Shown: positions 24,801 to 59,016 of the stretch, piece by piece | How positions within the stretch are numbered: the stretch's first letter is position 1 | Layout: every line of letters begins with the position of its first letter | Origin: Lamellibrachia columna | Taxonomy: Eukaryota > Annelida > Polychaeta > Sabellida > Siboglinidae | Reading direction: 5' to 3' | Assembly: GCA_963662155.1 (NCBI GenBank) | Contig: OY759263.1 | Coordinates: forward strand, 38,828,595-38,892,594 | DNA length: 64,000 nucleotides | Notes under the pieces: generated by a model | What the model saw: only the letters and a program-made list of their open reading frames with translations | What the model was told of the DNA's origin: nothing | The model's database searches: none | Program-made: the position numbers and the translations under genes

Positions 24801-27800
24801 GATTTAAGCACCAGGATAACCCAGGGCTGCCATCTTCTCTGGTCTGGATCGCAGTCGAAACAAGTTTTCTCAAAGCTAGCACAGCCGGCTATGCTTCATC
24901 TACTTGAAGTTCGCTTTTTTAAAACAAAGTTGGATCTGTAGGGAACTTAAACCAACTACATGTTTGTATTACAATCGAATGCCGCACAAACCATTATGAC
25001 GCTCACTTCTAAACAACCGCTATTACTCTCAATGAATGGTACAATGAATGGATGAAAAACCCCAGTCGTGTAGCAGTTCCTTGTCAGCAGTGATGTAATG
25101 TCAAAGCTTGCCGATAATCATGGGAAAAACATGCATAGTTGAGGCAGGCCAGTAGAACATTATACTATTATTTGGAATTATTAATTAATTAAATTCTAAT
25201 GAATTTGTTTGTGTTGTGGAAATGTAAATATACTACAAGATGTAAAATAACATGATTTCAAGCAGTCATTGTTTTTATTCCCCTTAATGAACTACAATAC
25301 AATGTTATGTTATGTTAATAAACTAAGTTAATCTCAGCTAAAAACATTATTTTGTGTGGCTTAAACGAATTAAAAAACAGCCCAAACTGGCCCGATGGCC
25401 TTAAAAAAGGCTCTGGGCGTTAATGTTGAGGCCTGCATCAAGTAATCAAAGATCGTTGACGCCATTGTTTTTAAAGTCGGATATCTAGTTCATCGTCATT
25501 CCTGGGTGAATTCGCTTAGAGTTAGGAAACTCGGCTCTAGTTGTTGCTGCCCAGAAACTGTAGCAATTTTGAGTGAAAACTTGTATAAATTTTTTTTTTT
25601 AGCAAATTGAAAACATGACTGCAAGCACAATACAGTACATACAAGCTTCTTTCTGGTAATATTGATAACATACTCGAGGTTGCAACGGTTTCTGATTTCG
25701 AGGGGTAATATTATGTACAATAGTCACAAAATTTATTTTATTTCTGATCACTGCCTCCATTGGTATTAGCCAAGTTGGCAAAAGGTCTTCCCTTTTTTAC
25801 TTTTTTAATCAAGCAAAATATTTTTAGCCATTGGTGAATTGGTGAATGATTTTTTGCATATCCTAGGTGTGTGTGTGTGTGTCAGGAAGATGTGAGCCAT
25901 TAAGACTAGAGTTTACAAAATCCACTTCCACCACATCCTGAATATAAGGGTTCATACTGTGAGAAGATGAGCCGAGCTAATATCCGACTGACTAGTCATA
26001 TTCAAACTCACAACAAATGAAACTGTCCACAGAAAGATCACCCTTGCAATGTGCACAATTTCTCTATCATGTTTTTCAATCATGGTATTTTTAATGTTTT
26101 TTTAGGTCAGTGACTAAAATATCACTAACCATACTTGTTTGTTACCAGTTGATATCTGACCCAGAAAGCAAGTGACATTTTAAAATTAGGATATATTATT
26201 TTGAGGCAGACATCCTGGTCAAACATTTGAGTGTTTTGTGTGGGAAATTTTTTTTAGCTGCACAACTAAAAATGGTTTCACATGTGCACACATACTTGCA
26301 CACATTACCTGCACATATTATGCTAACTATTGTTTGCATGCATGTGTGCATGCATGCATGCACGTGTGGGCATGCACATGTGTGTGAGAGCTGTCACATT
26401 AAGATAGTTTTGTATGTTTCTGAAGGTACCAATGGTTCATTAGCAAGTGTGCTCTTCCCCACTACTGCCGCTGCGGCTGAGTTGTTGACTGATGGTCTTC
26501 AACAGAAGTCTGTGTTGTCTGTCTTGAAAGGCAATACAAAACCATTGACAGATGAAAACAAGGAGTCGGCATCAGCTGTATCAAGTGATGATGAAAAAGA
26601 CTGTCATTTAATGAAGAATGGAGTGCATTCCACCGGTGCATTGGACGGCAGCACAGACAGCTCAATGGCAACATTTCCAGCAGCAGCGAACCCATTCTTG
26701 TTGCCACTGGCTGAATCATCTGTTTCACCAATGGCATATTTCCCTTTTGGGAATTCACCACTTCTTGGTCCCAGTACTGTCCACACAAGTATGTTCAACC
26801 CTTCCCCCCTGTTCTCAAGCCCCATTCAGGCCATGTTTCCATATGGCAGCACAGCCACTGCCAAGCATTCGTCATCACCTGACCGACCAGTGATGACAAG
26901 ACAGAATGAGTCCAGTGAGAAGGTAGCCAGGAGGAAGACCTCACGAGGTAGTTCAACAAGCATGACAGCAACCAGTGTGTCTATTACTAGTCCCATCCTT
27001 GCTGTACCAAAGCCTGCAGCACTGACAACAGGAAGGAAGAAGCAGCGCTGTAGAACTAACAGGGTAGGTGATCAATCCCAGCAGATCATGTTTCTTGCAC
27101 TTTGTCCCAAGCCAAGGGACATTCTTGAAATTGACGCAGGGCATTCAGTGTTGTGGTGTTGGTGACAAGATTTGTAGTATTCAGATGATAGTTTTATTTA
27201 CGTTTCAAGCTCAATAAATGTTCATGTAAAGCTTCTTCAGGTGGGATAATTAGTAAATGGTTGACAAACCAAACTTCACAATATATGGCTACTTTATTAT
27301 TTTTTTATCCTGTTTTTTATCATTATTATTATCAAAGTTCATTATAAAGACAATGCTCTGAATAGATGTGTTGGCAGATGGCAAGAGGATTGTTCTCTGC
27401 ATAATTGCATATCAAGGTAGACGTCAACAACTGAAAATATATGTTTCGTTATAACTAATTATGCTTTATTGAATATATTAATTTCCTTAAATGGTTGCAG
27501 AAGTCAGCTGGGAATATCGTGACAGACACTGATGGTTCAGAAGCCAGCTCAGACAGCTCCCTTAGTGACAGTGTCAGTCTCGACTCTCGTACTACCACAC
27601 CTGCACAAGTAAGACTTGTCTTCTTTCTACCACACCTGCACATGTAGGACTTGTCCTCTTACAGCCACACCTGCACAGGTAGGACTTGTCCTCTTTCTAC
27701 ATCCCCTGCACAGGTAGGACTTGTCCTCTTACAACCACACCTACAAAGGTAGGACTTGTCCTCTTTCTTCCATACCTGCACAATACAAGTGTGTCCCCAT

Positions 27801-59016: not shown

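Follow-up and report, generated by a model that had tools for sequence, protein, structure and literature searches.

Minisatellite arrays across five 5' splice sites of a predicted BAZ2A/2B-type gene in the annelid Lamellibrachia columna

In amphioxus, minisatellite-like duplications of intron-exon boundaries have been described under the name of 'mirages', for the Adh3 gene and the globin genes BflGb6 and BflGb9 in the relevant sections of PMC3087553, and for PGBD5 and TnC in the corresponding part of PMC3902484. In those sections of PMC3087553, it is reported that both borders can be duplicated, that many of the units carry splice signals, that lengths vary and that regular splicing is not disturbed. 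Instability, of length and in somatic tissue, is a further property of the mirages. The repeat unit lengths quoted there are 10-72 bp for Adh3 and 150-160 bp for the globins. A related process is the gain of introns by tandem genomic duplication, known as the Rogers model, with examples from potato RdRp (PMC4974935) and Drosophila (PMC2891723).

For annelids, no case of boundary-spanning minisatellites was found in the literature searched, which included few subscription papers. The Ridgeia genome paper treats repeats and intron sizes in general terms only, as far as its relevant sections go (PMC9921365), and the corresponding part of a paper on earthworm metallothionein describes repeats in introns, none of them across a splice site (PMC12783039). 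An earlier note on a stretch of DNA from Lamellibrachia columna had presented repeats copying exon tails at 5' splice sites without reference to any precedent; the observation stands for five of the six exons named, and both a name and precedents exist in the amphioxus mirages, as described in the sections of PMC3087553 referred to above.

The host gene and its surroundings

The window is the whole stretch of DNA that was analysed, 64,000 nucleotides of a single haplotype, of which positions 24000-42000, 47800-53000 and 54200-61600 were read by eye and the remainder by programs only. On the plus strand, exons 3-17 (26426..59016) form a single open frame of 988 codons, with introns that all have GT-AG borders. 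Judged by its sequence, the gene is of the BAZ2A/2B type. An MBD (TAM) domain followed by a charged region was identified (PF01429, E 1.3e-21, and alignment with homologues), and the best match among solved structures is BAZ2B (PDB 7win, E 3.7e-35). The closest protein, with 90% identity over 231 residues, is one predicted for the vestimentiferan tubeworm Ridgeia piscesae, and a second search gave 65 relatives with 30-51% identity. Exons beyond exon 17, to which the DDT, PHD and bromodomain that follow in BAZ2A/2B proteins would belong, probably lie outside the window. Exon 6 contains 40 uninterrupted CAG triplets coding for polyglutamine (29679-29798).

In the introns between exons 3 and 17, tandem arrays with periods of at least 10 nt account for 17264 of 29628 nt (58%). 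Outside exons 3-17, the array density is 6% in the 26 kb upstream, which may include more introns of the gene, and 5% in the 5 kb downstream, which is probably intron 17, so that the contrast is not simply one between gene and non-gene. Intron 8 contains 87 perfect GT repeats followed directly by 24 perfect GGGT repeats (34713-34982). Copies of a repeat family of about 0.9-1 kb, about 78% alike, are present at 32988-33897, 48563-49556 and 5678-6386; the two copies on the plus strand are flanked by TA and have the ends CAGTC(A/G)AGCC...GCGACTG. The family is presumably a non-autonomous element of the pogo/Tc1 type. Its copy in intron 7 sits within the minisatellite of that intron, which resumes beyond the insertion. 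On the minus strand, a fragment of a reverse transcriptase was identified at 11029-11544 (RVT_1, E 1.8e-13).

Arrays straddling the donors

Five arrays on the plus strand, delimited by Tandem Repeats Finder (TRF), straddle the donor of an exon of the model and repeat the end of that exon. At exon 4 (27501..27608), which is defined by the open frame and AG/GT borders, the last 17 nt are repeated in a 35-bp array of 5.5 copies (27592..27782), with four further copies of the junction 24-mer. The last 10 nt of exon 11 (38431..38611) are repeated in a 48-bp array of about 20 units (38602..39531; 13 junction copies), and the last 7 nt of exon 12 (39831..39923) in a 38-bp array, also of about 20 units (39917..40685; 9 junction copies). 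The largest array is the one at exon 13 (41175..41290), where the last 12 nt are repeated in about 130 units of 51 bp (41279..47888; 58 junction copies within 3 kb). At exon 16 (57397..57462), the last 15 nt are repeated in a 54-bp array of about 21 units (57448..58585; 19 junction copies). The arrays had been described before as starting at or just after the donor. This was not confirmed by TRF, which places the starts within exons 4, 11, 12, 13 and 16, at 17, 10, 7, 12 and 15 nt before the respective donors.

The same five donors were obtained with a test that is independent of TRF, in which the 24-mer across each junction was searched within 3 kb with at most 6 mismatches and at least two copies were counted. 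Downstream copies were found at 5 of 15 donors, namely those of exons 4, 11, 12, 13 and 16, and within 3 kb there were none at the other 10 donors and none at any of the 15 acceptors. By this test, copies were likewise absent from all 2189 positions in the interior of exons, the polyglutamine stretch being left out, and at least two copies were present for 16576 of 29082 intron positions.

A sixth array had been claimed for exon 5. Here, a 43-bp array (28543..28812, plus strand) begins 20 nt past the donor and shows a borderline likeness to the exon tail and donor, with 15 of 20 nt matching at the junction (shuffle P 0.05) and no junction copies. Of the six arrays named in the earlier note, five are thus retained and the one at exon 5 was set aside as suggestive. 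When the borders were compared with neighbouring arrays in 11 tests, exon 5 included, P fell below 0.1 only for exon 5 and for the acceptor of exon 14 (0.03). At the latter, a 29-bp array of intron 13 (49636..50767, plus strand, by TRF) ends 12 nt before the acceptor, and the first bases of exon 14 resemble the 29-bp unit after a gap of 4 nt (array region 49636-50780). From these features the array is a possible, degenerate case of an old duplication on the acceptor side. The other arrays were also considered as copies of exons: the 13 remaining unit consensuses, including that of the array designated I5a after exon 5, were compared by blastn with the exons and 30-nt flanks. The single match with E below 0.01 was between the array of intron 13 and array bases just before exon 14. 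By this comparison, none of the 13 is a copy of an exon of the gene.

The number of straddling arrays expected by chance was estimated by re-placing 23 arrays randomly within their own introns in 40000 draws. Periods below 10 nt were dropped, and two neighbouring clusters of intron 10 were counted as one. Arrays were left out if they lay within exon 5 or exon 17 or outside the stretch from exon 3 to exon 17, among them one at 59073-59170, 56 nt past the donor of exon 17. Under this null, 0.66 donor-straddling arrays are expected and 5 were seen (P of at least five, 2.3e-4), 1.33 starts within 20 nt on either side of a donor are expected and 6 were seen (P 7.5e-4), and when the founding units alone are placed, 0.20 to 0.30 straddling arrays are expected (P 2e-6 to 1.6e-5); all of these P values refer to one gene, and they overstate the case, since the window was chosen because of the pattern. 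Within this gene, and uncorrected for that choice, the previous statement that random births should rarely straddle a donor so often was borne out. For the acceptors, no excess was observed in the same null: 0.67 straddling arrays are expected and none was seen, which is not unusual (P of zero 0.50), and two array ends lie within 20 nt, 8 nt before exon 9 and 12 nt before exon 14, compared to 1.33 expected (P of at least two, 0.39). The difference between 5 of 14 donors and 0 of 14 acceptors is marginal (Fisher P 0.041).

Direction of copying and origin of the arrays

An identical sequence in exon tail and repeat unit would equally be produced if the arrays had come first and the exon ends had been taken from the first repeat unit. 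This order of events is hardly conceivable for exons 11, 12, 13 and 16, for which the capture of exon ends was rejected on the basis of coding tails common to relatives. In Ridgeia, the tails of exons 11, 12 and 13 are nearly identical (RRLQQQ, NKEVR and RTQQIIE, respectively), and the tails of exons 13 and 16 are conserved in distant animals. All 10 aligned proteins have Q-x-x-E at the end of exon 13. At the end of exon 16, 4 of the 6 homologues which reach it have RKK, and the remaining two have RKR and QKK. Because these coding tails are shared, the arrays at the four exons have copied the exons; for the region of exon 4, the homologue search found none. The Ridgeia protein P0001 continues after exon 13 as ...QQIIE-VRWPNT, a sequence that would fit a read-through into intron 13 in a gene devoid of the 51-bp unit and would equally fit a wrongly predicted next exon.

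A common origin of the arrays was considered by comparing the 15 pairs of unit consensuses, exon 5 included. With mononucleotide shuffles, which are the cruder control, 4 of 15 pairs reached P below 0.05, and with dinucleotide shuffles 1 of 15 remained. The remaining pair is formed by the units of exons 11 and 13, which have CTCTCACAG in common (P 0.017, dinucleotide shuffles). In both the array at 38602-39531 and that at 41279-47888, CTCTCACAG is the exact join of the intron part and the tail copy. The description of the arrays as unrelated in sequence mostly holds. Homology between the arrays is not proven, and their births were apparently separate.

The origin which is considered probable is a passive one by tandem duplication, with the resulting arrays being tolerated at donors since the true donor is transcribed first. 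Each array would have been founded by a short tandem duplication of 35-54 bp, with its left end 7-17 nt inside the exon, so that the duplicated unit would comprise the end of the exon, the donor and the adjoining start of the intron. The unit may then have been multiplied within the intron by slippage or unequal exchange, and the copies would drift passively. An additional partial copy of the exon tail was seen by informal inspection at the end of 4 of the 5 arrays, that at exon 11 being unclear, which would fit a priming of the first duplication by short direct repeats. The gene would have remained functional, since the exon's own donor is transcribed first and adjoins the rest of the exon and would thus be the one used. 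By a donor weight table, the score of the true donor is reached by 125 of 129 unit donors at exon 13, 13 of 19 at exon 12, 9 of 19 at exon 11, 9 of 20 at exon 16 and 3 of 5 at exon 4. Many copies thus equal the true donor in strength by this table, and the choice of donor should depend on position and not on strength; we infer that the first transcribed donor is committed first. Duplications on the donor side would survive under these circumstances and those on the acceptor side would be spliced in wrongly, which may be the reason for the one-sided pattern. This passive origin is consistent with the junction copies at donors and their absence from acceptors and exon interiors, with introns that are rich in arrays overall, with stops soon past the first donors and with tails common to relatives. 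It also agrees with the undisturbed regular splicing of amphioxus mirages in the described sections of PMC3087553. Against it stand the strength of many unit donors, an absence of acceptor cases that is unsurprising in number together with a marginal difference between donors and acceptors, and the duplication of both borders in amphioxus, as given in the same sections of PMC3087553. Moreover, random placement alone gives 0.66 arrays and not five, and tolerance differences or seeding must therefore contribute. Random birth combined with a difference in tolerance between donors and acceptors can explain part of the excess.

Seeding would be the main cause if donors were birth hotspots of minisatellites, the DNA that spans them being duplicated by damage linked to splicing or transcription or by template switching. 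The five arrays seen against 0.20-0.66 expected argue for such hotspots, as do the mostly unrelated units and overlaps which are just 7-17 nt deep for units of 35-54 nt. However, the evidence comes from a single gene chosen for its pattern, 10 of 15 donors in this array-rich gene are without copies, and acceptor-side cases are present in amphioxus (PMC3087553, relevant sections), which together make the hotspot explanation doubtful. That 5' splice sites are true birth hotspots from lancelets to annelids, feeding raw material for new exons and introns, is a broader proposal and is likewise improbable. Selection could also have retained the copies, in a role as splicing decoys or regulators. It had been claimed that every unit ends with the exon tail and the donor, and this is too strong: units that retain the +1 G of the donor number 4 of 5 at exon 4, 12 of 19 at exon 11 and 11 of 20 at exon 16, where this position varies more than any other in the unit. 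The complete GT is kept in 19 of 19 units at exon 12 and in 127 of 129 at exon 13, figures which are the same for the +1 G. Relative to the remainder of the unit, the donor hexamer varies slightly less at exon 12 (5.3% compared to 7.0%) and exon 13 (0.4% compared to 1.3%), and it is unchanged in the four full units at exon 4, where the comparison depends on the counting of the last partial copy. In contrast, it is more variable than the rest at exon 11 (0.096 compared to 0.074) and exon 16 (0.092 compared to 0.069). When read through, a stop is met 6-78 nt past each of the five first donors; 189 of the 192 unit donor positions lie behind a stop, and the other three, 35, 38 and 76 nt downstream, cause a frameshift. 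Only the first donor keeps the frame, and none of the 192 unit donors extends the exon by simple extension without a stop or frameshift. Because the donor copies are not consistently better preserved and none keeps the frame by simple extension, a decoy function is unlikely, the suggested selection for decoy donors could not be upheld, and maintenance by selection of either kind has very little probability. It is also very unlikely that the units serve as microexons or recursive splice points. In the consensus unit at exon 13, a branchpoint-like ctaac and a cag acceptor precede a 9-nt in-frame insert, which is followed by a donor, and the insert, ATTATTGAG, would add three codons and no stop; the unit at exon 4 joins cacag to gtagg. 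However, the inserts at exons 11 (7 nt) and 12 (8 nt) would shift the frame, and in the units at exon 16 the tail copy is not preceded by any clear pyrimidine tract. The property, for which acceptors were judged by eye, is therefore not common to all.

Comparison to known systems

If array starts cluster at donors throughout the genome, a mutational process tied to splicing would be indicated, from which new splice sites could arise directly. If they do not, the case would show how well splicing can ignore dozens of donor copies. In either case, boundary-spanning minisatellites are extended from lancelets to an annelid, with five apparently separate births in one gene.

The Rogers model of intron gain has in common with the arrays a tandem duplication that copies a splice motif. 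In that model (PMC2891723, PMC4974935), a duplicated exonic AG/GT motif results in a new intron. In L. columna, by contrast, the duplicated donor was already in place and its copies lie in the intron that it opens; new introns from duplicated donors were not seen in this gene. The internal tandem repeats of human segmental duplications are also minisatellite expansions which are sometimes located at an exon-intron boundary; in the relevant part of PMC2812944, however, about half of them are coding, they vary between recent paralogs and they are not described there as donor copies.

The closest likeness is that to the amphioxus mirages. Tandem units across an exon-intron boundary are present in both, here at 5 of 15 donors, and in both the splice signal is found in many units though not in every one, the +1 G being kept here in proportions from 11 of 20 to 19 of 19. 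In amphioxus, the mirages include an array on the acceptor side, according to the described sections of PMC3087553. In contrast to these mirages, the arrays of L. columna belong to an annelid gene, occur five in one gene and, in the clear cases, on the donor side only, and reach up to about 130 units. The kind of array was thus already known from amphioxus, and what is new here is the annelid host, the number of five in a single gene and the restriction of the clear cases to the donor side.
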